Below are positions 10,974-46,850 of a stretch of DNA of 64,000 nucleotides, piece by piece. Within the stretch, counting starts at the first letter, position 1. Every line of letters starts with the position of its first letter. The notes beneath the pieces were generated by a model. It had not been told where the DNA came from, ran no database searches, and saw only the letters and a list, made by a program, of their open reading frames with translations. A program made the translations under genes and the position numbers. Location of the stretch: the NCBI RefSeq assembly GCF_000092405.1, contig NC_014220.1, positions 1,116,001-1,180,000 of the forward strand, given 5' to 3'. This stretch comes from Syntrophothermus lipocalidus DSM 12680 (GTDB lineage Bacteria; Bacillota; Syntrophomonadia; Syntrophomonadales; Syntrophothermaceae).

Positions 10974-12734
10974 GTGAAGGTTCTCTTGGTAGCGCTTAAC
11001 GCCAAATTCGTCCACACCAACCTTGCTGTTCGGTATTTGAAGTCTTACTGTGAATCGGACTTTCCCGACATAGTGGTGAGGGAGTTTACTATCAATGAGT
11101 ACCTGCCCGACATCATGGCCGAGATCTACCGGGAAAAGCCCGATATCATAGGGTTTTCCTGCTACATCTGGAACATAGAAGGGGTCTTTCGCTTAACACG
11201 CGACCTGAAGCAGGTTTTGCCCGGCTGCGTGGTAATACTCGGCGGCCCGGAGGTGTCATTCGACTCTGTGGACCTGTTGGAAGCCCATCCTTTCATCGAC
11301 GGTATCGTAAGGGGTGAAGGGGAAGAAACGTTTTTAGAGTTGCTCCGTTCTTTGGACAACAGGGGATCGGGGCTGGTAAAAGGCGTAACCTGGAGAGAGG
11401 GGAATAGGGTCATTTATTCAGAAGACCGGAATCCCATAACTCGCCTTGACAGTATTCCATTCCCATACGAGAAGGAAACGGAAAACCTCAACGGGCGGAT
11501 AGTCTACTACGAGACTTCGCGTGGATGTCCTTTTAACTGTAGTTACTGCATTTCATCTACCACCCGTGGGGTTCGCTGGTTTACTTTAGAAAGAGTTAAA
11601 GAAGACTTAAGAAAACTACTCCAAATAAAACCAAAGGAAATAAAGTTTGTGGACCGCACTTTCAACGCCAACCCGAAACGGATGCGGGAGATAATGGATT
11701 TCCTTATCCAAGAGGCCAAAGAAACCTCGTGTCATTTTGAAATCGCAGCCGACCGGCTTGACCAGGGGACAATCGAATTTCTTAAATCCGTTCCCCTTGG
11801 GGTCTTCAGGTTCGAGATCGGGGTTCAGTCGACCAATCCCGAGGTTCTCCAGGCGGTGAACCGGCCTATGAACTGGGAGTTGCTGGAGAGTAACGTCAAG
11901 AGCATCCGTCAGCAGCACAATATCTTCATTCACCTGGACCTTATCGCCGGTTTGCCCGGTGAAACTTACCATTCCGTGGCCAATTCTTTCAATCAGGTTT
12001 ACCGTCTATGTCCTGATCACCTCCAACTCGGGTTCTTGAAGATGCTTAAAGGATCGGCTATACGAGACAAGAGCTACGAGCACGGTTACAAGTTCAGTTT
12101 TGAGCCACCGTATGAAGTCTTGCAGAATGCCTACATAACCTATGGTGAAATGGTCCGGCTTAAGCGCATAGAGGACTTGGTAGAGAAGTATTATAACAGC
12201 GGCGATTTCGCCCACAGCCTGCGTTACATGATTAAACACGGGTGGAAAGACGATGCCTTCAGATTTTACGAAGAGTTTGCTGGGTATTGGGAAGACAAGC
12301 GGTGGCACCGGGTGCACCATAACAAGAGCAGCTTATACTCTATGCTAATGCAGTTCGTATCACAGCGCAGGCCAGATCTGATCAGACCTGTGAACGAACT
12401 GCTCAAGTTCGATTACCTTTTGAATTATCATTCACAGAAACTACCTGACGGACTAACCAGGATCGAGCTACCGGGGCAGAAAGAATTCTTTGATGACTTT
12501 TTGCGGCAAGAAAATAACAGGCTAAGATACTTTTCAACGATGCAGGATGTTGCGCTGGGTAAACTGAAACGCCAGCTTCACCTGGAAGTATTCACGGAAG
12601 ACGTGCTTTTTTTAGGTGAGCTACGAGAGCGCGAGCTGTCGGGGCCCTATTTTTTAGTTCTCTTTAGAAAAGGCGACAATGCTTGTGACCTTGGTCAACT
12701 AAGTGTATACGGGTTTCCTGATCGGATCTGTTGA
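10974..12734 (+). CDS. B12-binding radical SAM protein (DUF4080 type)
   Basis: A 586-residue protein. The N-terminal cobalamin-binding-like domain (about residues 1-130) has LNAKFVHTNLAVRYLK and VVILGGPEVSFD. It is followed by a radical SAM core whose CxxxCxxC motif is at C185, C189 and C192 (GCPFNCSYC). The C-terminal 200 residues match the DUF4080 extension usually found on these proteins. The reaction is unknown; relatives do methyl transfer or ring rearrangement. The GTG at 10974 is preceded by CAGGAG. The CBS-pyrophosphatase starts 21 bp after its stop, so the two are probably co-transcribed. Confidence 0.88.
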   Translation: MKVLLVALNAKFVHTNLAVRYLKSYCESDFPDIVVREFTINEYLPDIMAEIYREKPDIIGFSCYIWNIEGVFRLTRDLKQVLPGCVVILGGPEVSFDSVDLLEAHPFIDGIVRGEGEETFLELLRSLDNRGSGLVKGVTWREGNRVIYSEDRNPITRLDSIPFPYEKETENLNGRIVYYETSRGCPFNCSYCISSTTRGVRWFTLERVKEDLRKLLQIKPKEIKFVDRTFNANPKRMREIMDFLIQEAKETSCHFEIAADRLDQGTIEFLKSVPLGVFRFEIGVQSTNPEVLQAVNRPMNWELLESNVKSIRQQHNIFIHLDLIAGLPGETYHSVANSFNQVYRLCPDHLQLGFLKMLKGSAIRDKSYEHGYKFSFEPPYEVLQNAYITYGEMVRLKRIEDLVEKYYNSGDFAHSLRYMIKHGWKDDAFRFYEEFAGYWEDKRWHRVHHNKSSLYSMLMQFVSQRRPDLIRPVNELLKFDYLLNYHSQKLPDGLTRIELPGQKEFFDDFLRQENNRLRYFSTMQDVALGKLKRQLHLEVFTEDVLFLGELRERELSGPYFLVLFRKGDNACDLGQLSVYGFPDRIC

Positions 12735-35933: not shown

Positions 35934-37016
35934 TTAATCCCCAAAGCTGATCCCCACGGCCCGGGCAACCTGAATCATTTCATGATCAACCGGGACCTTT
36001 TTCAACTCGCCAATTGCGTCTTCGAGAGGCACGGTGGTTACGGCCGAGCCTTGCAGGCTAACCATGCTTCCATAATTGCCAGCTTTCAGAGCTTTTGTTG
36101 CCGCTACTCCATATCTAGTGGATAAGATGCGATCAAAGGCGTTAGGGCTGCCACCTCTTTGTAGGTGACCGAGAACCGTAACCCGTGTTTCCTTCCCGGT
36201 CAATCTTTCTATCTCCTCACCTACCTTATTACCTATTCCACCCAGCCTCACGGGATCGTGGCTCTCAGGAACTATTTTTTGAACAACCATTTCCCCGCCT
36301 TCAGGCTTGGCTCCTTCAGCAACCACTATAATGCTGAATTTCTTGCCAGTCAACGTGCGCTCTTCGATTTTTTCACAGATCTTCTCCAGCTTGAATGGTA
36401 TTTCGGGTATGAGTATAACATCGGCTCCCCCGGCTATCCCTGCAGCTAAAGCGATCCATCCCGCGTACCTCCCCATCACTTCGAGAACCATTACCCGGTG
36501 GTGAGATTCCGCAGTAGTATGCAGGCGGTCTAGCGCATCCATAGCTGTGGCTACGGCCGTATGAAAACCAAAGGTGAGATCGGTAGCTGAAAGGTCGTTA
36601 TCAATGGTTTTGGGGACCCCGACCACTTTGACCCCTTTTTGATGCAGCTGGTACGCTATATTGAGACTTCCGTCCCCGCCGATTACTACCAAAGCATCAA
36701 TGCCGAGCCGGTCAAGGTTTTCCAGGACTACCGCCGACATATCTCGAAACTCTTTTTGGCCGTTTTCCTCGATGAGGAAATTGAACGGGTTATCCCGGTT
36801 CGTCGTTCCGAGGATAGTGCCACCGCGGTGAAGGATCCCGGAGACGGCCTGCAGGTCTAAGATGCGGTAGCGATTTTCGACCAAGCCTTTAAACCCGTCT
36901 TCAAATCCAATGACTTCCCAGCCGTAAAGGTTGATTGCAGACTTGGTTACGGCCCTGACCACGGCATTGAGTCCAGGACAATCTCCACCCCCTGTAATGA
37001 CTCCGATACGATGCAT
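35934..37016 (-). CDS. pfkA: 6-phosphofructokinase
   Basis: PfkA (360 residues) phosphorylates fructose 6-phosphate in glycolysis. Visible motifs are the phosphate loop GGGDCPGLNAV, GGDGSLNIA, the catalytic PKTIDNDLSATD, MVLEVMGRYAGW and HLQRGGSP. The GGDGS glycine is the residue associated with ATP use, while the lysine in PKTID is the one found in pyrophosphate and group III enzymes, so donor choice is ambiguous. AAGGAG lies eight bases before the ATG at 37016; a GTG three codons upstream is less well placed. The DUF6485 gene lies just upstream on the same strand. Confidence 0.93.
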   Translation of the reverse strand: MHRIGVITGGGDCPGLNAVVRAVTKSAINLYGWEVIGFEDGFKGLVENRYRILDLQAVSGILHRGGTILGTTNRDNPFNFLIEENGQKEFRDMSAVVLENLDRLGIDALVVIGGDGSLNIAYQLHQKGVKVVGVPKTIDNDLSATDLTFGFHTAVATAMDALDRLHTTAESHHRVMVLEVMGRYAGWIALAAGIAGGADVILIPEIPFKLEKICEKIEERTLTGKKFSIIVVAEGAKPEGGEMVVQKIVPESHDPVRLGGIGNKVGEEIERLTGKETRVTVLGHLQRGGSPNAFDRILSTRYGVAATKALKAGNYGSMVSLQGSAVTTVPLEDAIGELKKVPVDHEMIQVARAVGISFGD

Positions 37017-37040
37017 TCCTCTCACTCCTTTTTCCTCTAC

Positions 37041-37241
37041 TTACCTTTCCTGGCAAGCCTGAATGAAACGGCGATAGGAGCGATCATAAGTACGTTCAAC
37101 ACTTGGCGGGAAAAAGCAGCCAGGCACTTCATTACGACGCCGATGATAGGCCACGCATTCGCAACACTTGCCTTTGCGGTGACAGACTTCATAAGTGCAC
37201 GTACAGGTAAGTGCCAGTTTTTCTTGGTTACACTCCTTCAC
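37041..37241 (-). CDS. DUF6485 cysteine-rich small protein
   Basis: A 66-residue protein with a dense cysteine cluster (LTCTCTYEVCHRKGKCCECV), then YHRRRNEVPGCFFP and RTYDRSYRRFI. This is the DUF6485 pattern, probably metal-binding, of unknown function. AGAGGTGA stands just before the GTG at 37241; the frame continues to 37274. It is probably co-transcribed with pfkA, 24 bp downstream, and follows the htrA terminator. Confidence 0.78.
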   Translation of the reverse strand: MKECNQEKLALTCTCTYEVCHRKGKCCECVAYHRRRNEVPGCFFPPSVERTYDRSYRRFIQACQER

Positions 37242-37281
37242 GATTTCACCTCTTTCCGCGCTATCCATCAACACTTATTAT

Positions 37282-37309
37282 AAAAGATAAAAGGGTGGTT
37301 TACCCACCC
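37282..37309 (-). terminator. Rho-independent terminator of htrA
   Basis: On the minus strand, a hairpin built from GGGTGG/CCACCC (arms about 37293-37309) is followed by TTTTATCTTTT. It lies about 60 bp after the htrA stop and before the DUF6485 gene. Confidence 0.75.
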
Positions 37310-37365
37310 AAGTAATAATATAGTTCCCCTCGTGTATTTGATGCTTGCCTGAAAGGCCGCTCTTC

Positions 37366-38535
37366 TTAAGGCTTGGCCGCCAAAGTCAACGGTAGTTCTT
37401 TTGTACTACCGTTGCGAATCACCTTAACCGTTATTGTTTGTCCAGCTTTCTTGGTATCAAGGATAGTTTTCAGCCCGTCATAGTTATTCACTGTTTTTCC
37501 GTCAATAGCCGTTATAACGTCCCCGGTGTGTAAACCGGCCTTTTCGGCAGGGGTCCCCGAATAGACTTGGGCCACCAAAACTCCTTTGGTGGTACTGAGC
37601 CCGAGGCTATTGGCAGTATCTGCGGTTATTTCGCTAACCCCTATTCCCATGTATGCCCTTTCGACTTTCCCTTTACTAATCAGTTGATCCAGAACCTGCT
37701 TCGCCGTATTGATGGGGATAGCAAAGCCGATCCCTTGGGCCGAAGCGTTAACTGCCGTATTAATACCTACAAGCTCTCCACTCGCTGACAAAAGAGGACC
37801 GCCGCTGTTACCGGGATTAATGGCGGCATCAGTTTGAATCAGGTTCCGGTATTGACGATCGCCTATGGTAACCGGACGCCCTTTGGCACTGATGACTCCG
37901 GCGGTAACGGTATGATCCAAGCCATAAGGGTTTCCTATGGCTATAACCCAGTCTCCCACCCTGATCCGGTCTGAATCTCCCATCTTCAACGCAGTATAGG
38001 TGGCCTTTTTCTGAAGTTTGAGAACCGCAAGGTCCAGCTCATAATCCTGTCCAACTATTGTCGCCGGAATAGGCTGGTCAAAACCGGCAACCGTGACCAT
38101 GATTTTCACCGCGTTGTTTACCACGTGCTGGTTGGTCAAAACGTACCCGTCAGATGAAATAATACAACCGCTACCAATACCTGTTTCATAAGTAGACCGG
38201 GGAGATATACCGAACCTGTCGCCAAAAAACTCTCTAAAAAACGGGTCGTCAAAAAACGGGTCAACATAACCGTTGTCTACGCGCACAGTCGTCTCAATAT
38301 TGACAACGGCTGGGCTAACCTTTTCCACCATGTCAGCAATACCGCTCGGACCCATAACCACATACTTGGTTGTTTCGCCCGATTCCTGGGCTGCCAGTTG
38401 TCTGGACTGGTTACCATTACCCTTCCAGTCGGCCAGTTGATCGGGCATATTTACCCCTATCAATGCGCCTATAAAAACTCCGAGAACCAGGACAACCAAA
38501 AATCTAAGAACACCTGAGCTCTTTACGTTAGCCAA
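37366..38535 (-). CDS. htrA: HtrA/DegP-family serine protease with PDZ domain
   Basis: A membrane-anchored S1C protease of about 389 residues. One N-terminal helix (VLRFLVVLVLGVFIGALIG) precedes a trypsin-like domain with catalytic His in VLTNQHVV, Asp in ELDLAVLKL and Ser in NPGNSGGPLL. A single C-terminal PDZ domain follows (GIGVSEITADTANSLGL to AGLHTGDVITAIDG). It degrades or refolds damaged proteins outside the membrane. AAGGAGG stands eight bases before the TTG at 38535; the frame is open to a TTG at 38544 that sits against the same sequence. Its own terminator lies downstream. Confidence 0.93.
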   Translation of the reverse strand: MANVKSSGVLRFLVVLVLGVFIGALIGVNMPDQLADWKGNGNQSRQLAAQESGETTKYVVMGPSGIADMVEKVSPAVVNIETTVRVDNGYVDPFFDDPFFREFFGDRFGISPRSTYETGIGSGCIISSDGYVLTNQHVVNNAVKIMVTVAGFDQPIPATIVGQDYELDLAVLKLQKKATYTALKMGDSDRIRVGDWVIAIGNPYGLDHTVTAGVISAKGRPVTIGDRQYRNLIQTDAAINPGNSGGPLLSASGELVGINTAVNASAQGIGFAIPINTAKQVLDQLISKGKVERAYMGIGVSEITADTANSLGLSTTKGVLVAQVYSGTPAEKAGLHTGDVITAIDGKTVNNYDGLKTILDTKKAGQTITVKVIRNGSTKELPLTLAAKP

Positions 38536-38986
38536 AGCACACAACCTCCTTCCCTTGCACCAAGAGAACTAACAGGTTTATTCTTGATGAATTTTACCAC
38601 ACTTTTGTTAAACTGAGGAGGTGCCACCGCCTCCCCTTTCTTTGCTCGGCTACCTATAAACTGTAACCCTCTTTCCCGAGAATGCATATTTATACACAGT
38701 ACAGCGATGAATAAATTGCATGAATATACACAACCGATGCCCGTCAATCCACCCGCCGAAAGCAGACACGTAAACAGGTTATGGCTACGGCGACTCGCCT
38801 TAAACAAGTGTTTACATGCGGGGTGGTTCTTAGGGCGGAGCGCAAATAGAGAGGAAACATCAAACACCTCAAGTGAAGGTCAATGAACGTCAGTTGGCTT
38901 GCAAAAAAACAGGCCCAGGATTTCTGGGCCCGGTAGTTCCACCTATTTTAACGCTCCGGCAGGCTCATCTCGTTAGTAGGAAACAT
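38536..38986. other. Intergenic region upstream of htrA
   Basis: About 450 bases between the htrA start and the end of the second VWA gene. Apart from the terminator at 38902-38931 I see no clear gene or regulatory structure. The open minus-strand frame to 38867 has no Shine-Dalgarno sequence and overlaps the htrA ribosome binding site. Confidence 0.4.
38902..38931 (-). terminator. Rho-independent terminator of the PAS-AAA-VWA unit
   Basis: On the minus strand GGCCCAG-AAATC-CTGGGCC is followed by TGTTTTTTTG. It lies about 60 bp after the stop of the VWA gene and ends the three-gene transcript. Confidence 0.88.
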
Positions 38987-40762
38987 CTATTCTTTGTATG
39001 CTTGTGCGGTTACCCTCTTTTCGTAACGTACGATGTCAATTAAGGTGTTACGGTTGAGGTCGTCTACTACATAGAGAGTGCCGTGGGCACGGGCAGCCAA
39101 CTCGTTGAGAAAGACTTTGTTGGACTCCAAACCAATGCAGACAAATTTGATTTTTGTATTCGCGATTTTTTTGGCAGCAGTCAAAGCGTCTTCCCTCGCA
39201 TCTACTGTCCATAACGGGAAATTGGGCATTCCGTCGGTAATAAGGACCAGTAACGGGTTGCTTACTCGCGAAGATTTAATGAGTTTGAGGCTGGTGGCGA
39301 TGCCGTCTGCCAGCGGGGTAAGCCCTTCCGGTCGTATGCTGGCCAACCCTTTGGTGAGCAACTTGTGGTTGCGGGTGAACGGGACAACGACTTTGGCTTT
39401 TGTTTGCTGGAATATGACCACTGCCACTTTTTCTCTGCCCGTAAGCAGGAGATGTTCGGCCAGGTAGCACGCGGCCTGGCGCTTATCTCCGGCCATACTG
39501 GCACTGGCGTCAATCAAGAGGCAGACATCGATTGGCACGTAAGCCCGGCGGTCGTAGATGCGCATATCTTCTTTGCGTATAGTAAAATGTTTTTCTCCCC
39601 GGAGAAAGCAGCCTTTTTTGGCCTGGATAATAGTTTCGGGGACTGCTAAGTCGCCGGTTTGGGGACTTTGGGCGAGGGGGACGGTTTTATTGCGATTCGT
39701 AAACTGCACAGCGGAGGCCGTTTTTTCCCCTTTCCCAATCCTGTGGTAATACCTGGACCTTCCGGGAGACTTGCGAATGCTCCTTCTAATTTCAGCCTCG
39801 ATGTCGCACTTGTGCTGGGACAAGTATTGGATGAGTTCCTTGCCTTCCTTGGTCAAAACCGGCCCAAACAGACCTTTCTTGAGAATCTCGAGGTCCTCAA
39901 GCTGTTCCAGGTATTCGTCTAAGTCCCCTACTTTGCGTTTTTGTTCCTCCCTGCTCTTGCGTTTAAAGATGTTGCTACCATAACTTTCAAGAAACTCCTG
40001 TAACTCCTCCACGCTGGCGAACTTTTCAACCAGCTTCAGAAGCAACTGGTTTTGGTTTTCACGCAACAATAACGGGCTGTATTCTCCACCCTTTTTCTTC
40101 CAGGGCAAAATTAGATATCCGGCTAGGTTTTCTTGTTTGTTCTTTTCCCTGGTATGAACGATTCTCTTGACTTTACCAAGTTGAAGTCCAGCCTCCTCAA
40201 CAGCTTCTTCCACGGCCTGGACTATAGGAAGAATAATCCCGTACTTTTCGCGTGTGAAGCTGGCCAAGATGTGAACGTGATTCAGTTTGGCCTCGGCTCC
40301 GGTTACCGGTTGAAGTTCCCCTTGAGACAGTTGATAAACCAAACCGCGTCCGGACTTTGTAACTACCTCAATCTTAAGAGCGTATTCCAGAACGTTTTTC
40401 ATCTTTTCTTCTTCATTGAACTGCAGGCTGGGGTCCAGGTTAGTCAAATGAGTTTCGATGGCCCGAAAAACATGCCTGGATACCTGCCTAGGGTCTAGTG
40501 TTCCCGGCGAGTGATAAACGTCGATGTGTACCACTTGCCCAGTATCCACGAACCCACGGTACGTTTTGCCCGCATCTCGGTTCAAAAGAATTCGTACATG
40601 GCCCCTCCGTCCTGGTACTTGGGTGTGGGCTTTGAGGCTCACTACGGCACACTCTCCTAGCCTCACCCCCTGCTCCTTCTCAAAATACATACCGAGATAG
40701 TTCCCTACCAAGCTGGCAGTGTCAAACGCTTCGTTTTTTTCTTCCATCCTCATTCTCGTCAT
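38987..40762 (-). CDS. VWA-domain protein, ChlD/CoxE-like partner of AAA+ ATPase
   Basis: A 591-residue protein with a C-terminal von Willebrand A domain from about residue 410. All MIDAS elements are visible: DASAS near 419-423, the Thr in PEGLTPLADG and the Asp in ITDGMP. The N-terminal 400 residues have no motif I recognise and include a basic, low-complexity segment around 330-370. Paired with the ChlI-like ATPase 122 bp upstream, it should bind metal-dependent ligands for an AAA-driven remodelling step. The start is uncertain: ATGs at 40762, 40753 and 40747 are all in frame, and GGGGAG lies close to the first. A terminator follows. Confidence 0.85.
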   Translation of the reverse strand: MTRMRMEEKNEAFDTASLVGNYLGMYFEKEQGVRLGECAVVSLKAHTQVPGRRGHVRILLNRDAGKTYRGFVDTGQVVHIDVYHSPGTLDPRQVSRHVFRAIETHLTNLDPSLQFNEEEKMKNVLEYALKIEVVTKSGRGLVYQLSQGELQPVTGAEAKLNHVHILASFTREKYGIILPIVQAVEEAVEEAGLQLGKVKRIVHTREKNKQENLAGYLILPWKKKGGEYSPLLLRENQNQLLLKLVEKFASVEELQEFLESYGSNIFKRKSREEQKRKVGDLDEYLEQLEDLEILKKGLFGPVLTKEGKELIQYLSQHKCDIEAEIRRSIRKSPGRSRYYHRIGKGEKTASAVQFTNRNKTVPLAQSPQTGDLAVPETIIQAKKGCFLRGEKHFTIRKEDMRIYDRRAYVPIDVCLLIDASASMAGDKRQAACYLAEHLLLTGREKVAVVIFQQTKAKVVVPFTRNHKLLTKGLASIRPEGLTPLADGIATSLKLIKSSRVSNPLLVLITDGMPNFPLWTVDAREDALTAAKKIANTKIKFVCIGLESNKVFLNELAARAHGTLYVVDDLNRNTLIDIVRYEKRVTAQAYKE

Positions 40763-40884
40763 CACTCCCCAACCGGTTTCTGCCTCTGTGGTTCTTTGCC
40801 GTGGTTCAACAAAAATTTCCCAGAGGCATTGGTAGTTCGGTGCACTGCATCAGCTTAACTATATAAATCGATTTTCAAGGTTAT

Positions 40885-42102
40885 TTAGAAATCTTGCGGG
40901 TTCAAAGTCTTTTCAGTAGCGATCAATTCGCTGCGGCTCATATCCTTGATGCGCCTGGCTCCCCCTAAGAAGGTATCGTCTGTTTCTTCTTGCTCCTTTT
41001 CCGGAACGCACTGTTTGCCCAATCCAGTCTTGTCGCGCAGGCTCAAAATGCTCTCCTTAGGAGACCTGGCTTCAAGACTGTTCATTATTTTGACCAGGGT
41101 ATCGCCTTCCACCCTGTGCTTTAAGGCTAAAGGTACCATTTCTACCACATCGGCCACAGTGGGTTGTTTACGTTTCTTAAGCAAACTGTAGAGCAAAGCC
41201 CCCTGTTGTATAGCCTCGATAGCCCGCAGACTTTCAAGGTTATGCTTAACATAAATCCTGGCAACAAAGTTCCGCAAGTAATCGGGAAGTTCAGCTTTAG
41301 CGTAGCCTTCAGCTATCTCCAGTATCCGCCTGCGATACTCCTCGTGAACCTGTTCTGCCGCGGCATCTTCGTTTGCCCGGCTTGACTTAGTAGACTTTGA
41401 CAGGATCTCTGCTACTACCTCTACCGAGGCAGGTCGTCCCATGTAAAACACCATATCGAAGCGGTCTGAAAGCTGTCGTCTTACTTCTTCCAATGGTCCC
41501 GGTTCTTCGTCCGGGTTGGAAGCAGCCCATATGGTGACGGCTAAAGGTATCTCAACCACTGGCAATCCAGCTTCTTCAATCTGAAGCCTTCCTGGCTTTT
41601 GCCCCATGACGTCCAACAGTATATCTGTTATCTCGGGCGAGGTATCTGCCAAACGATTGATTTCATCAATAAAAATGATTCCCCGATGAGCTTGGGGAAG
41701 GATTCCGGGGAGCAGAGCTGCTTCCGGCATGTTGGGATCGGTAATCTTTGCTAGGTCTATACTCCCAGCTACTGTACCTACTTTTGCCGAGTGGGATATC
41801 TCCAACAAAGGCATCATAATCTGTTCTACCCCGAGTTCTGCGATTTCCTCAGAAGACAAACCTCGGTGATTAGGACAGTGAGGATCAGACGGGTTACAGT
41901 TGTACAAGCATCCTTTGATACGGGTAATGGTCGGCAGTATATCCCTGGCTGCGCGCATAATAGTGGTCTTACCTGTACCCCGCAAGCCTTCTGCATGTAT
42001 GTGAAAAGGTTCCCCGAAATAAGTGGACGCTATCGACATTTCTACGAGATCAAAAAGAGTCTGGTTGCCATCGTGCCTCGATAATTCAGCGTAACGTTTC
42101 AT
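40885..42102 (-). CDS. ChlI/MoxR-like AAA+ ATPase with Cys cluster
   Basis: A 405-residue AAA+ ATPase of the magnesium-chelatase ChlI-like group. Walker A is GLRGTGKT (39-46) and Walker B GIIFIDEINRL with D146-E147. Sensor-1 lies in IWAASNPDEEPG and the arginine finger in RQLSDRFDMV. Between Walker A and B is a small Cys/His cluster (C65, C69, C76, H79 in GCLYNCNPSDPHCPNH) that may bind zinc or an iron-sulfur cluster. Its ATG overlaps the PAS-protein stop by four bases (ATGA), and the VWA gene follows. No chlorophyll or cobalamin chelatase gene is near, so it is probably a MoxR-like chaperone. Confidence 0.88.
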   Translation of the reverse strand: MKRYAELSRHDGNQTLFDLVEMSIASTYFGEPFHIHAEGLRGTGKTTIMRAARDILPTITRIKGCLYNCNPSDPHCPNHRGLSSEEIAELGVEQIMMPLLEISHSAKVGTVAGSIDLAKITDPNMPEAALLPGILPQAHRGIIFIDEINRLADTSPEITDILLDVMGQKPGRLQIEEAGLPVVEIPLAVTIWAASNPDEEPGPLEEVRRQLSDRFDMVFYMGRPASVEVVAEILSKSTKSSRANEDAAAEQVHEEYRRRILEIAEGYAKAELPDYLRNFVARIYVKHNLESLRAIEAIQQGALLYSLLKKRKQPTVADVVEMVPLALKHRVEGDTLVKIMNSLEARSPKESILSLRDKTGLGKQCVPEKEQEETDDTFLGGARRIKDMSRSELIATEKTLNPQDF

Positions 42103-44024
42103 TGGGCCTCACCTCCGTCAAGTCCGTTTTCACCTACCTGTTCCCCTGCAAACTGGGCCAGAATCAGGGTTTTGGTTACGGCACCGTTTTGCTCGACAGG
42201 TACTGTCTTGACTTTCATTTGTAACTCAGTACCATCCTTCTTTTTCAAGACCAAAACATACTCACCTTCTGTCCCTGTCGCCAGGCGTCGTGCCAGTTCC
42301 TCTTTGGGAGCAGAGACCTGCTTTTCGGCAAGCAAAGAGGAAACACCCTTTTCTAAGAGTTCCCCGTGATCGTATCCTAGCTTTTCTTCGAAGGCGCGGT
42401 TGGCTAAGGCTATCACTCCTTGAGTATTACACATCCCAACAGGTAAACCAATACTGTTCAAGATGAAAGTTAGCTGCTCCACTTCTCCTCGTAAAGCCGC
42501 TTCCTTTTGTTCTTGGATTTTGCGCTGGGCAGTTATTTCTCTTAAACTTTCTACCGCGCCGATCATGCTTCCACTGTTATTTCGTAGAGGAGCTGCGGTT
42601 CCCCACAAGTACTGGGCTTTCCCTTTGAGTTTGGGGACATCAAACTCAGAAATAAGGTTGTAATTCTCATATTGAAATATCTTGTAATACTTTGCTACTT
42701 CCTCCGGATTAAGGACCACATCCACCATAAGTGGTCGTTTGATGCCGTAGAACGGGATCCCATACTCGTAATCACCCTTGCCCAGCATTTCCTCGGCTTT
42801 AACCCCGGTCATTTCTTCCATTGCTTTGTTCCATATAACCACCTTACCTTCGTGGTTAATAGCGAGAACTGCATCGGGGAACTGATCAAGTATGATTCGC
42901 GCGCTGTATTCTGATTCTGCCAAGGCCGCTTCGGTAAGTTTGCGCTGGGTGATGTCACGCGCTATTCCTTGAATAGCTACAGGTTTCCCCATTTTATACA
43001 CCGGCCACGCACTTATCTCGAGAACTACCCGTTCCTGGTATTTAGTGCTAATTTCTAGTTCATAGGTGTTCTCCTTTTGCCTGGTCTTTTTACGATAAAT
43101 CATGGAACGCAAAAGCTGGGAGTAATCGTGTACGACCAGTTGTTCGATGTTCATCTTGAGTAACTCGTCACGCCAGTACCCTGTAATCTTTTCTGCTGCT
43201 CGGTTAACGAAGAGAAAATTGCCCTCCAAATCATGAGCAAAAATCATGTCTCGGGCGTTATCGAAGAGATTCCGGTAACGCTCATCACTCTCTTTCAATG
43301 CTGCTTTCAGCTGGCGTGCCTCGGTTACGTCCTGGATAACAGTAAGTATTCGTTCGTCGCTTCCCATAGAGATGCGGCTCGGTTTAACCTTGATCCAGAA
43401 CGTCCTGCCCCCTTTATCTTTGGCTTCCCACTCAAACGGACTGACCTGTGAATAAAAGGCCCTCTTTATAAGCTGGGCAAACTCCTCTTTGGTGTAAGGG
43501 ACTTGCCCGCTCACCAGATCAGTGATATTCATTCCCAACAATTGTTCACGTCGGTAAACAAACATTTCCGATGCCTTGTCGTTGGCCAATATGATTTCTC
43601 CAGTATAGGCGTCATGAATGAGCAAAGCGTCATTAACTGCTTCGAGCAAGGCTCGAAAATCTCCGCTTTCACGGGTCTGCAATCTGTGAATCCGTTCGTC
43701 CTCGGTAACATCCTGAAATATCGAAACCAAACCCCAAGAAGTTCCGTACACTCTTTCCCTGAAATAACGGTAACCGTACGAAGTGGTTATCTGTTTGATT
43801 TCTCCAGTGGCTAGCACTTCTAAATAAGTGTTGTGACAAGGGGTATCTCTCAACCCGGGGACAGCATCAAAAAGGTTACTTCCTTCCAATTCCCCAACCG
43901 GTAATTCGACCAAATCGGCATACGCTTGGTTGCAATAAACAACCTGAAAGTTCTTCCTCAAAGCTAAGACCGGTTCAGCTATGCCGTCCAGCATGTTTTT
44001 GAACCCGAATTTTGTTTGCGGCAT
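42099..44024 (-). CDS. Five-PAS-domain protein without output domain
   Basis: A 641-residue cytoplasmic protein made of five consecutive PAS domains, roughly 9-115, 124-240, 248-365, 372-505 and 515-625. Each has the S-box ending or an equivalent (SIFQDVTEDERIH, VIQDVTEARQLK, GIARDITQRKL, SLREITAQRKI). No kinase, GGDEF, EAL, HTH or sigma-54 domain follows; the protein ends 20 residues after the fifth PAS. GGGGGG precedes the ATG at 44024, and the frame is open to 44108. Overlap with the AAA gene means the sensor and ATPase are made together, so the PAS protein may signal by contact to the AAA-VWA pair. Confidence 0.88.
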   Translation of the reverse strand: MPQTKFGFKNMLDGIAEPVLALRKNFQVVYCNQAYADLVELPVGELEGSNLFDAVPGLRDTPCHNTYLEVLATGEIKQITTSYGYRYFRERVYGTSWGLVSIFQDVTEDERIHRLQTRESGDFRALLEAVNDALLIHDAYTGEIILANDKASEMFVYRREQLLGMNITDLVSGQVPYTKEEFAQLIKRAFYSQVSPFEWEAKDKGGRTFWIKVKPSRISMGSDERILTVIQDVTEARQLKAALKESDERYRNLFDNARDMIFAHDLEGNFLFVNRAAEKITGYWRDELLKMNIEQLVVHDYSQLLRSMIYRKKTRQKENTYELEISTKYQERVVLEISAWPVYKMGKPVAIQGIARDITQRKLTEAALAESEYSARIILDQFPDAVLAINHEGKVVIWNKAMEEMTGVKAEEMLGKGDYEYGIPFYGIKRPLMVDVVLNPEEVAKYYKIFQYENYNLISEFDVPKLKGKAQYLWGTAAPLRNNSGSMIGAVESLREITAQRKIQEQKEAALRGEVEQLTFILNSIGLPVGMCNTQGVIALANRAFEEKLGYDHGELLEKGVSSLLAEKQVSAPKEELARRLATGTEGEYVLVLKKKDGTELQMKVKTVPVEQNGAVTKTLILAQFAGEQVGENGLDGGEAQ

Positions 44025-44412
44025 GTTCCGTCCCCCCTTACTCTTAGTATTAGTGACAACATTCACTAACCTGGTTCCATTAAACCCTTTTGCGCTTCCA
44101 GCGAACAAACGTTCTACAACGCACTTCCTTTCTTTCGTTTATGTAGATATACCGCCTATGTGTTTTATGTATGTACAAAGGCCCCGCCTAGGCATATGTA
44201 TATGTAAATAAGGAGCTCGGGGAGCTCGATGCCCGATGAAAGAAACAGCCGGGCATGTATGCGGTTGAACATGACCGGCTGCTTTGTCTCGTGGTTGGGG
44301 CAACCAACCGAGTCGATGGTGAATGGTCTTAATTTTTTGGATATCTCTAATTGCTCGTGTCCAGTGAAAACCATAATTTACACTTCTTTCTGAAGCAAAG
44401 CTAAAAACCCAC
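44025..44412. other. Intergenic region upstream of PAS gene
   Basis: About 390 bases. It contains an imperfect hairpin around 44247-44285 (ACAGCCGGGCATG and CATGACCGGCTGC on the plus strand) and one copy of the 25-nt sequence described at 44363-44387. Open minus-strand frames across it lack ribosome binding sites. It probably contains the promoter of the PAS-AAA-VWA unit, but I could not fix it. Confidence 0.4.
44363..44387. repeat. 25-nt direct repeat, copy 1
   Basis: AGTGAAAACCATAATTTACA followed by CTTCT. It matches 45194-45218 at 23 of 25 positions in the same orientation. The ends AGTG and CACT are mutually inverted, so each copy is weakly palindromic. Confidence 0.65.
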
Positions 44413-44778
44413 TCAGTACTCGTAAATCTCCCGCAGGCGTTCCCTTTCAGCAAGACGCGTTTTCTCTTGAGCATCGCGTTTCTTGGGAATCTGAGCACTG
44501 ACGGGATGCGCCTCTTCGACTTCGGGTTCGGGAACCGGCAGGGGTACAACCGTGGCAGTTTCTGCATTCCTTTTCTGATACCACTGATAGGCTTCCTTGT
44601 ATAATTCCCTATCTCTCGCCCGCACCCGTGATAGGTACGCCCGCCTTTTACGCTGCCTTTCTCGAGCGGCGGCCTCAATCTGCAAAGTGACTAGGTAAAT
44701 GATGAAGCCCAAGATTACCTTGGCTACCAGATACATCATAGCCACCAGCAGAAATATGACCTGAAACTTGGTCATCAT
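44413..44778 (-). CDS. Single-pass membrane protein with charged cytoplasmic tail
   Basis: A 121-residue protein. Residues 5-35 form one hydrophobic helix; the rest is strongly charged, beginning with an Arg-rich stretch (ARERQRKRRAYLSRVRARDR) and then a Pro/Glu segment and a helical end. GGGGGGG lies before the ATG pair at 44778. No family is recognised. It lies upstream of the PAS-AAA-VWA unit on the same strand, with nearly 400 bp between, and has its own promoter, so a functional link is only possible. Confidence 0.65.
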   Translation of the reverse strand: MMTKFQVIFLLVAMMYLVAKVILGFIIYLVTLQIEAAARERQRKRRAYLSRVRARDRELYKEAYQWYQKRNAETATVVPLPVPEPEVEEAHPVSAQIPKKRDAQEKTRLAERERLREIYEY

Positions 44779-44962
44779 TTGTCCCCCCCACTGCAACCCA
44801 TTCACCATCGGTAGTTGGTGTGCCTGGGGATGGATTCAGTTGTAGTAACTTAGCCTCACCTCCAATGCAACTTACCCCCTGTCTAGAATATAGCACGCAA
44901 ATGCGCTAGAACCAAACCGTCCTCGAAAGGTCACCGTATTAACGGATTCGGTAGTTTCTTGT

Positions 44963-44991
44963 AGTATAGCATAGTCATTATTAAGGCGTAA
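44963..44991 (-). promoter_or_regulatory. Promoter of the small membrane-protein gene
   Basis: On the minus strand TTACGC (44986-44991) and TATACT (44963-44968) are 17 bases apart, and TGC before the -10 gives an extended element. Transcription from here would leave a leader of about 175 nt before the start codon. Confidence 0.55.
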
Positions 44992-45193
44992 TATGCCGCT
45001 TTAGTAGGATGAACTGTTGGTTAAGTGTCTTTTCCTAACAAAGTGGTGTAAAAAAAGGGGGGTAACAGGGGTTTTGTCATTTCATACAATCTTCCTTGCC
45101 TGTTAGGATTGTTACTTTGCGAACTATCCCTCACAAGCGTCCGGATAGGTCATGGGCCATTACAAGAGCAGTTTGACGTGCTAAAATTTAATT

Positions 45194-45218
45194 AGTGAAA
45201 ACCGTAATTTGCACTTCT
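45194..45218. repeat. 25-nt direct repeat, copy 2
   Basis: AGTGAAAACCGTAATTTGCA followed by CTTCT, differing from copy 1 (44363-44387) at two positions. The copies flank the small membrane-protein gene and its leader. Confidence 0.65.
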
Positions 45219-45223
45219 TAAAG

Positions 45224-45249
45224 AGGCTCAATGCAGAGCCTATTTTTTT
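45224..45249 (+). terminator. Rho-independent terminator without upstream gene
   Basis: AGGCTC-AATGCA-GAGCCT followed by ATTTTTTT on the plus strand. No plus-strand gene ends near it, so it may terminate a small RNA or a leader. Confidence 0.8.
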
Positions 45250-45329
45250 GCCCCTCTACTTTTTCCCTGCTCCACTGACTTATTCGCAATTAATGTAATA
45301 ATACCTCCTATGTGTCCCTAAGGGAAAAC

Positions 45330-45358
45330 TTGTAATTCGCCTGTATTAACTATACAAT
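45330..45358 (+). promoter_or_regulatory. Promoter of DUF523 gene
   Basis: TTGTAA (45330-45335) and TACAAT (45353-45358) with a 17-base spacer, 38 bases before the start codon of the DUF523 gene. Confidence 0.7.
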
Positions 45359-45396
45359 AAAGCATCATCGAGATCCCGATTTAGAGGTGGCGTTTT

Positions 45397-45873
45397 TTGA
45401 TACTGATCAGCGCATGTCTTTGCGGATGCAAATGCACTTACAAGGGAACGAGTCACTATCATCCAGTGTTCTACAAGTTGTATAAAGAGGGAAAAGCGGT
45501 TGTCGCTTGCCCTGAGAGACTGGGTGGATTACCGGTGCCCCGTTCGCCCGCCGAAATAGTTGGAGGGGACGGAAGCTCGGTTTTGAAAGGCTTAGCTAGG
45601 GTAATCACCAAAGAAGGCAGAGACGTGACTCCTTGTTTTCTTAGAGGAGCAAAAGAAACCCTTCGTATTGCGCGAGACGCGGGAGCCATTGTGGCCGTAT
45701 TGAAATCTCGCAGCCCATCCTGTGGGGTCGGACAGGTTTATGACGGAACATTTAGCGGTAATTTAAGGGGAGGAAATGGTGTCACTTCCGCACTGCTAAA
45801 AGAGTACGGCTTGGCAATAATGAACGACGAAGAGTTTTTGCTAAGGCAAGAGGAGATGAAAGAAGGTTTATGA
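45397..45873 (+). CDS. DUF523 family protein
   Basis: A 158-residue protein with the DUF523 signatures: ISACLCGCKCTYKG at the N-terminus, ACPERLGGLPVPRSPAEI in the middle and LKSRSPSCGVGQVYDG later. The conserved cysteines suggest redox or metal binding; the function is not established. It begins at a TTG with GAGGTGG upstream and a good promoter. Its stop overlaps the start of the next gene (ATGA), a PP-loop enzyme, so a role in sulfur transfer or thiolation is plausible but is inference from position. Confidence 0.88.
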   Translation: MILISACLCGCKCTYKGTSHYHPVFYKLYKEGKAVVACPERLGGLPVPRSPAEIVGGDGSSVLKGLARVITKEGRDVTPCFLRGAKETLRIARDAGAIVAVLKSRSPSCGVGQVYDGTFSGNLRGGNGVTSALLKEYGLAIMNDEEFLLRQEEMKEGL

Positions 45874-46850
45874 AGGCGGTGAGCTTGTTTTCCGGCGGGT
45901 TAGACTCGCAGTTAGCTGTCTGTGTCGTCAAGGAGCAAGGGATTGAGGTTGTCGGGGCACACTTTAAGACCCCCTTCTTCGGTGGTGATGAGCACGTTGC
46001 CGAGGCGGCACGAAACCTGGGGATTGAACTGCTGGTCCTAGACAGGTCGGACGAATACCTGGAAGTTCTTAAGAACCCCCGTTACGGGTATGGTAAACAC
46101 ATGAATCCCTGTACCGATTGCCATGGGTTCATGCTGAAACATACCGGGCATCTTATGGATGATATAGGGGCCAAATTCATAGTAACTGGGGAAGTGCTCG
46201 GGCAAAGACCCAAGAGCCAGAACAAGGCAGCTTTGCGTCAGGTGGAGAAGCTCTCGGGTTATGAAGGATACATCCTGAGGCCTTTATCCGCCAAGCTGCT
46301 GCCGCCAACCATTCCTGAACTCGAAGGATGGGTGGACCGGGAACGGCTTCTTGATATATGCGGGCGTTCGCGGCTGCGCCAGATGGAGCTTGCCGAGAAG
46401 TACGGTCTAAACGATTACCCGTCACCGGCCGGCGGGTGTTTGCTCACGCAAGAGAACTTTTCACGGCGGCTGCAGAAGTTTATGAATGCTTATCCCGAAG
46501 CTAAGGCAGACGACATGTATATCTTGCGCTGTGGGCGACACATCTACCTGTCGGCTAGTTCCCTACTGGTGGTAGGAAGAAATCAGGAGGAGAACAGCAG
46601 AATCCAGTCCCTGGCTAAGCCTGGCGACTACTTGCTGAAGGTTAAGGCCTATCCCGGGCCCACAGGTCTATTGAGGGTGGCTACAAGGGCTTCCCGCGAA
46701 GAACTGACTGAAGCCGCCGCGATCGTTGCTCGTTACAGTGATGCAAGAGAAGCGGGTCTAGCCTTGGTTCAGGTTCGGCAACCAATAGGATCCGAGGAGG
46801 AAATAACCGTGTCTCCCCTCGCCCCGTCAGACACTCCTGCCTCTATATGA
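45870..46850 (+). CDS. PP-loop ATP pyrophosphatase with C-terminal NFACT-R/DUF814-like domain
   Basis: A 326-residue protein. The N-terminal PP-loop is SLFSGGLDSQLA, as in ThiI and MnmA. It is followed by the NPCTDCHGFML cysteine pair and VTGEVLGQRPKSQN. After YPSPAGGCLLT the C-terminal 110 residues resemble an NFACT-R/DUF814 RNA-binding module (MYILRCGRHIYLS, VVGRNQEEN). Proteins of this layout are annotated as tRNA 4-thiouridine synthase-like; the exact modification is not known. The gene overlaps DUF523 by four bases and converges on degV. A short hairpin, CAGGGA-GAAAA-TCCCTG (46867-46883), lies after its stop. Confidence 0.82.
   Translation: MKAVSLFSGGLDSQLAVCVVKEQGIEVVGAHFKTPFFGGDEHVAEAARNLGIELLVLDRSDEYLEVLKNPRYGYGKHMNPCTDCHGFMLKHTGHLMDDIGAKFIVTGEVLGQRPKSQNKAALRQVEKLSGYEGYILRPLSAKLLPPTIPELEGWVDRERLLDICGRSRLRQMELAEKYGLNDYPSPAGGCLLTQENFSRRLQKFMNAYPEAKADDMYILRCGRHIYLSASSLLVVGRNQEENSRIQSLAKPGDYLLKVKAYPGPTGLLRVATRASREELTEAAAIVARYSDAREAGLALVQVRQPIGSEEEITVSPLAPSDTPASI

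Follow-up and report, generated by a model that had tools for sequence, protein, structure and literature searches.

Does a five-PAS protein whose gene runs straight into that of a ChlI-like AAA+ ATPase control this ATPase, and what machine does the ATPase form with the VWA protein encoded behind it? The question is raised by a locus in the complete genome of Syntrophothermus lipocalidus DSM 12680 (2,405,559 bases), of which a stretch of 64,000 nucleotides (henceforth the window) was analysed. An earlier note on this DNA had proposed that the PAS protein gates the ATPase directly, by ligand or redox sensing, and that the locus encodes a signal-controlled AAA-VWA machine rather than a chelatase. 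Of the second part of this interpretation, the rejection of a chelatase stood; direct gating by the PAS protein was not supported. Reading of the open reading frames on the minus strand gives the order PAS protein gene, ATPase gene and VWA gene, followed by a terminator-like hairpin, with these features:

44413..44808, minus strand: 131-aa protein with a hydrophobic N-terminal stretch, also a neighbour in loci L053 and L054; no Pfam match
42099..44024, minus strand: PAS5, a five-PAS protein without output domain, 641 aa, ATG start at 44024; Pfam gives PAS x5 only
42099..42102, minus strand: ATGA shared by the PAS stop and the AAA start (sequence); absent in both other PAS-linked loci
40885..42102, minus strand: ChlI-like AAA+ ATPase, 405 aa (Pfam and curated-model matches); nearest solved structures are Mg-chelatase ChlI
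41866..41910, minus strand: C65-x3-C69-x6-C76-x2-H79 motif between Walker A and Walker B of the ATPase; 127/129 family ORFs
40766..40884, minus strand: AAA-VWA spacer with a predicted hairpin, z = -2.9 (folding prediction)
38987..40765, minus strand: VWA protein, 592 aa, ATPase partner; adjoins the ATPase in 107/122 loci
40130..40726, minus strand: N-terminal domain of the VWA protein, aa 14-212, with invariant S43, D64, G66, H80, H85, T136 and H163; no known family or fold match
39041..39568, minus strand: VWA domain with complete MIDAS (D419, S421, S423, T483, D511; Pfam and alignment); top PDB fold match NorQ-NorD VWA
38910..38932, minus strand: intrinsic-terminator-like hairpin 3' of the VWA gene (sequence)

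The gene layout was as the earlier note had described it. Five PAS domains and no output domain are all that Pfam finds between 42099 and 44024, and the PAS stop overlaps the AAA start at 42099-42102, where a Shine-Dalgarno-like GGAGGTGAGG lies just 5' of the ATPase start. The spacer behind the ATPase gene measures 119 bp to a GTG start of the VWA gene (40765) and, as noted before, 122 bp to the next codon, an ATG. What had been called a strong terminator is a GC-rich, 9-bp hairpin with a T run (38932-38910), some 55 bp past the VWA stop. A spacer of comparable length separates the AAA and VWA genes in L054, and an Rfam scan of positions 37000-46000, the spacer included, returned no match.

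The AAA-VWA pair and its copies

The ATPase carries Walker A (GLRGTGKTT) and Walker B (IIFIDE) motifs, and its partner has a single, C-terminal VWA domain in which the MIDAS residues are complete, as they are in 42 of 42 aligned VWA proteins. Across 122 ATPase loci (pooled from several sets, with at least four cases of the same locus seen twice), a co-directional VWA gene stands directly downstream in 107, is missing from 14 and is cut off in one, and the AAA+ and VWA genes are thus paired as in MoxR-type couples; the neighbours beyond the pair vary widely among loci. The ATPase was found in 53 of the 61 genomes of the order and in 109 of 398 genomes of the phylum (E <= 1e-60). A link to sporulation was considered and rejected: SpoIVA is present in 107 of the 109 ATPase-positive genomes but in 340 of the 398 overall, and because 233 SpoIVA-positive genomes lack the ATPase, sporulation is at most a lineage association. 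None of the papers that we searched describes the pair, and the family libraries that we used hold no name for it.

The ATPase is encoded three times in the host genome: in the window; in L033, where a VWA gene accompanies it and the two are flanked by genes for a LytTR response regulator and a Germane lipoprotein; and in L034, where it has a shortened tail and no VWA partner. The layout of L033, with the LytTR regulator 5', Germane 3' and no PAS gene, is the rule across the order. In the ATPase tree, the window copy clusters with those of L053 and L054 (100/99), beside the canonical copies of its own family. Judged by sequence, these three ATPases are one clade that arose by duplication within the window's family.

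Several loci depart from the common layout in detail. An ORF of ~75 aa with one hydrophobic C-terminal stretch lies directly upstream of the ATPase in L033, L034 and L055-L059, in two families; it is absent at the window locus and was not found in the third family. In L059, a canonical locus, no VWA gene lies between the AAA gene (ending at 11197) and Germane (12143). The VWA gene of L053 (11333-11709) consists of remnants with large internal deletions, the AAA and PAS genes beside it being intact.

The five-PAS protein in the order

A full-length relative of PAS5 occurs in 20 of the 61 genomes of the order, one in each. The orthologues are 507-662 aa long, with five PAS domains (fewer in some), and since they end without an output domain throughout the order, we could rule out that PAS5 is a truncated histidine kinase. 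The PAS5 tree separates three families and follows family lines.

The earlier note had suggested checking the co-occurrence of the trio. We found the PAS gene with the pair in 3 of the 122 loci only (the window, L053 and L054), all with one paralogue of the ATPase in one family, and co-directional in a single one of them. Thus the AAA-VWA pair is conserved, and the PAS-AAA-VWA trio is not. In 17 genomes outside the window's family, PAS5 stands in contexts that lack the ATPase and change by genus; these free-standing five-PAS proteins of Syntrophomonadales resemble window PAS5 in domains, size, missing output domain and single full-length copy, but unlike it are not beside the ATPase. We regard PAS5 as long established in the order and free-standing; beside the AAA copy of the window it is found in one family only, and there its gene orientation varies between genera. 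Counted by genome, PAS5 is present in 20 of 53 ATPase-positive and 0 of 8 ATPase-negative members of the order (p about 0.03, with no correction for kinship or for incomplete assemblies), with 33 of the 53 ATPase-positive genomes lacking it; the association is weak and may be an artefact of assemblies that are incomplete.

The overlap itself proved to be local. Because the PAS gene is divergent in both relatives, lying 169 (L053) and 232 bp (L054) from the ATPase start, the co-directional overlap is unique to this genome, and no PAS-AAA transcript would be shared in L053 or L054. Compared with the L053 and L054 proteins, the window PAS protein has ~14 extra C-terminal residues, which would fit a reading frame that now extends into the leader of the ATPase gene. 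Inverted repeats able to explain the inversion of the PAS gene were looked for, and none was found. These observations correct the inference of an operon here: a tight overlap in one genome can stem from a rearranged neighbour and says little alone.

Might the PAS protein nevertheless bind the ATPase and gate it according to ligand or redox state, so that in this lineage the AAA-VWA machine would be under signal control? The stop-start overlap suggests translational coupling at the window locus, the adjacency of the PAS and AAA genes is kept in three genera, and in L053 both have stayed intact while the VWA gene decayed. As the PAS gene remained beside the AAA copy in all three genera carrying it, a lineage-specific link is possible. 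However, this adjacency needs no functional reason, because flanking genes (PFK, DegP-like, w44413, w45397 and w45870) are also syntenic among the window, L053 and L054. The divergent orientation in both relatives likewise argues against gating, as do the unlinked PAS5 orthologues of the 17 genomes, and between the three genera the PAS proteins are only ~50% identical as opposed to ~80% for the ATPases. In the PAS5 alignment no Cys is conserved and only one His, H264, is invariant (20/20 orthologues). AAA-VWA pairs that normally lack the PAS gene, together with an overlap confined to this genome, were what the earlier note had itself named as speaking against its proposal, and both were found. 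We conclude that neither direct gating of the ATPase nor a machine under signal control through the PAS protein is supported, and regard this reading as distinctly improbable.

Regulators and sigma-54 elements at other ATPase loci

Signal control could also act on transcription, with LytTR regulators, Fe-hydrogenase-like/PAS/sigma-54 activators and sigma-54 promoters switching the genes on and PAS5 having no part in it. Indeed, a LytTR gene stands beside the canonical pair across the order. The PAS-bearing neighbours of the ATPase other than PAS5 are one-PAS proteins; of these, four were scanned in Syntrophomonadales, and all proved to be sigma-54 activators. Divergent regulators of ~900 aa, also PAS-bearing, lie beside the ATPase at five loci (L074:6500-9190, L100:1481-4216, L106:5958-8663, L113:1425-4118 and L117:1-1657); the three scanned are all sigma-54 activators, in which the activator domain is joined to ferredoxin, Fe-hydrogenase-like and PAS domains. 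Activators of this type stand divergent beside some paired and some unpaired ATPase copies.

We then scanned the upstream regions for the sigma-54 element TGGCAY-N5-TTGC, with GG-N10-GC spacing. Such -24/-12 elements were located 200-440 bp upstream of VWA-less ATPase genes in L034, L087, L093, L097, L105, L106, L112, L113 and L117, that is, at 9 of 14 VWA-less loci versus 1 of 107 paired loci (p = 1.7e-9; the loci are related and so not independent). In the tree, the VWA-less copies with an element fall in at least three separate lineages. Because of these elements and the adjacent activators, control at the level of transcription is better supported than PAS gating for the family as a whole, though not at the window, whose locus has neither a sigma-54 element nor a DNA-binding regulator. 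As a rival explanation we consider it unlikely. The sigma-54 finding is a lead to conditions in which the ATPase acts alone.

A chelatase is unlikely

The likeness of the ATPase to chelatase subunits is real. ChlI is the nearest solved family by sequence, and the AAA+ core can be aligned to solved ChlI over ~300 residues; the nearest curated models are putative cobaltochelatase, BchI and BchD. With Mg-chelatase ChlI/ChlD and putative cobaltochelatase (TIGR02442), the pair has in common an AAA+ core and a MIDAS-bearing VWA partner. Yet none of the curated ChlI, ChlD and cobaltochelatase cut-offs is approached (136.6 versus 779 bits for TIGR02442, 111 versus 467 for BchI-ChlI, and 59 versus 500). 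In addition, the ATPase differs from Mg-chelatase subunits in its Cys/His motif, at whose positions the aligned solved ChlI structures have no Cys, and the VWA protein lacks the AAA half of ChlD, since Pfam finds in it a VWA domain only and its N-terminal domain has no PDB fold match. As to the large subunit, a CobN/BchH-type protein (PF02514) is absent from the complete host genome and present in only 2 of the 61 genomes of the order, and genomes G041 and G014 have CobN with separate, weakly related AAA genes nearby on the same contig. A chelatase is unlikely because the complete genome lacks any such subunit, in agreement with the earlier note, and a genuine Mg- or Co-chelatase ID pair is in our estimate extremely improbable.

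A candidate AAA+ ring/VWA machine

Machines of the AAA-VWA type carry out the maturation of key metalloenzymes, and known clients are few. On balance, we think that the window locus is probably a second copy, specific to one family, of a ChlI-like AAA+ ring/VWA machine that is itself widely conserved and most likely works like NorQ/NorD. The observations behind this reading are the genes and their intact motifs, the pairing, the paralogy, the phyletic spread and the resemblance in fold between the VWA part and the NorD VWA domain. In the fold search of the PDB, the VWA protein hit 9qh6 best, a complex of NorQ with the NorD VWA (E 9.6e-9, probability 1.00); the hit spans the generic VWA domain only, and the scores of many unrelated VWA domains are not far below. 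Further likenesses to NorQ/NorD, the MoxR AAA+ and VWA proteins of nitric oxide reductase maturation, are the adjacency of the AAA+ and VWA genes and the C-terminal position of the VWA domain behind a long middle part. The differences are that the ATPase here is ChlI-like and carries C-x3-C-x6-C-x2-H, and that the VWA protein here has an N-terminal domain without a PDB fold match; nor genes were not noticed next to the pairs. A MoxR-type (AAA_3) match is absent among the Pfam hits of the ATPase; we do not assign it to the MoxR clade, though it may work like MoxR AAA+/VWA couples. To RavA/ViaA and CbbQ/CbbO the likeness is at the level of general AAA-VWA remodelling logic only (PMC10585395, PMC4660213).

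In NorQD, a finger of the VWA domain reaches into the pore of the ring, and the NorD linker is twisted by ATP hydrolysis so that metal can get in (PMC13036017, PMC9976466). By analogy, the ATPase would assemble into a hexamer, on which the C-terminal VWA domain would dock; ATP-driven movement would then pass through the helical middle part of the VWA protein to its N-terminal domain, which would hold the client, probably for remodelling or for insertion of a metal cofactor.

Could the window copy instead be a duplicate in decay that has no role of its own? The canonical pair persists in the host genome, and the VWA gene of L053 is a remnant. However, the catalytic, MIDAS and conserved N-domain residues of the window copy are all intact, and so is the L054 copy, which makes mere decay very unlikely.

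As far as sequence comparison goes, two features of the pair are new: the C-x3-C-x6-C-x2-H motif of the ATPase, present with small spacing variants in 127 of 129 ATPase-family ORFs, and the N-terminal domain of the VWA protein. In the latter, S43, D64, G66, H80, H85, T136 and H163 are invariant in 42 proteins from many families. The domain (aa 14-212) gives a confident AlphaFold2 model (pLDDT 94.7, pTM 0.91), which in a Foldseek search of the PDB found no match (best E 0.16, TM below 0.3), and Pfam scans of the 42 domains gave scattered chance hits only, so that no family applies. In the host genome it is restricted to the two VWA proteins. The pair, present in about a quarter of the sampled Bacillota genomes, has here a domain for which neither Pfam nor the PDB offers an explanation. 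It is conceivable, and we put it forward tentatively, that the pair is an undescribed machine for metal-cofactor insertion or repair in mostly spore-forming Bacillota. The N-terminal domain, with its invariant Ser, Asp, His and Thr, would then serve as a new module specific to the client, either metal-binding or catalytic, and the ring would be tied to the metal or redox state through the Cys/His motif of the ATPase.

The N-terminal domain is separable, because the VWA protein of one lineage (L189-L191) lacks it. Variation of another kind is seen in Thermincola-type genomes (L109, L114, L103, L108, L118 and L127), where two or three tandem VWA genes follow one ATPase.
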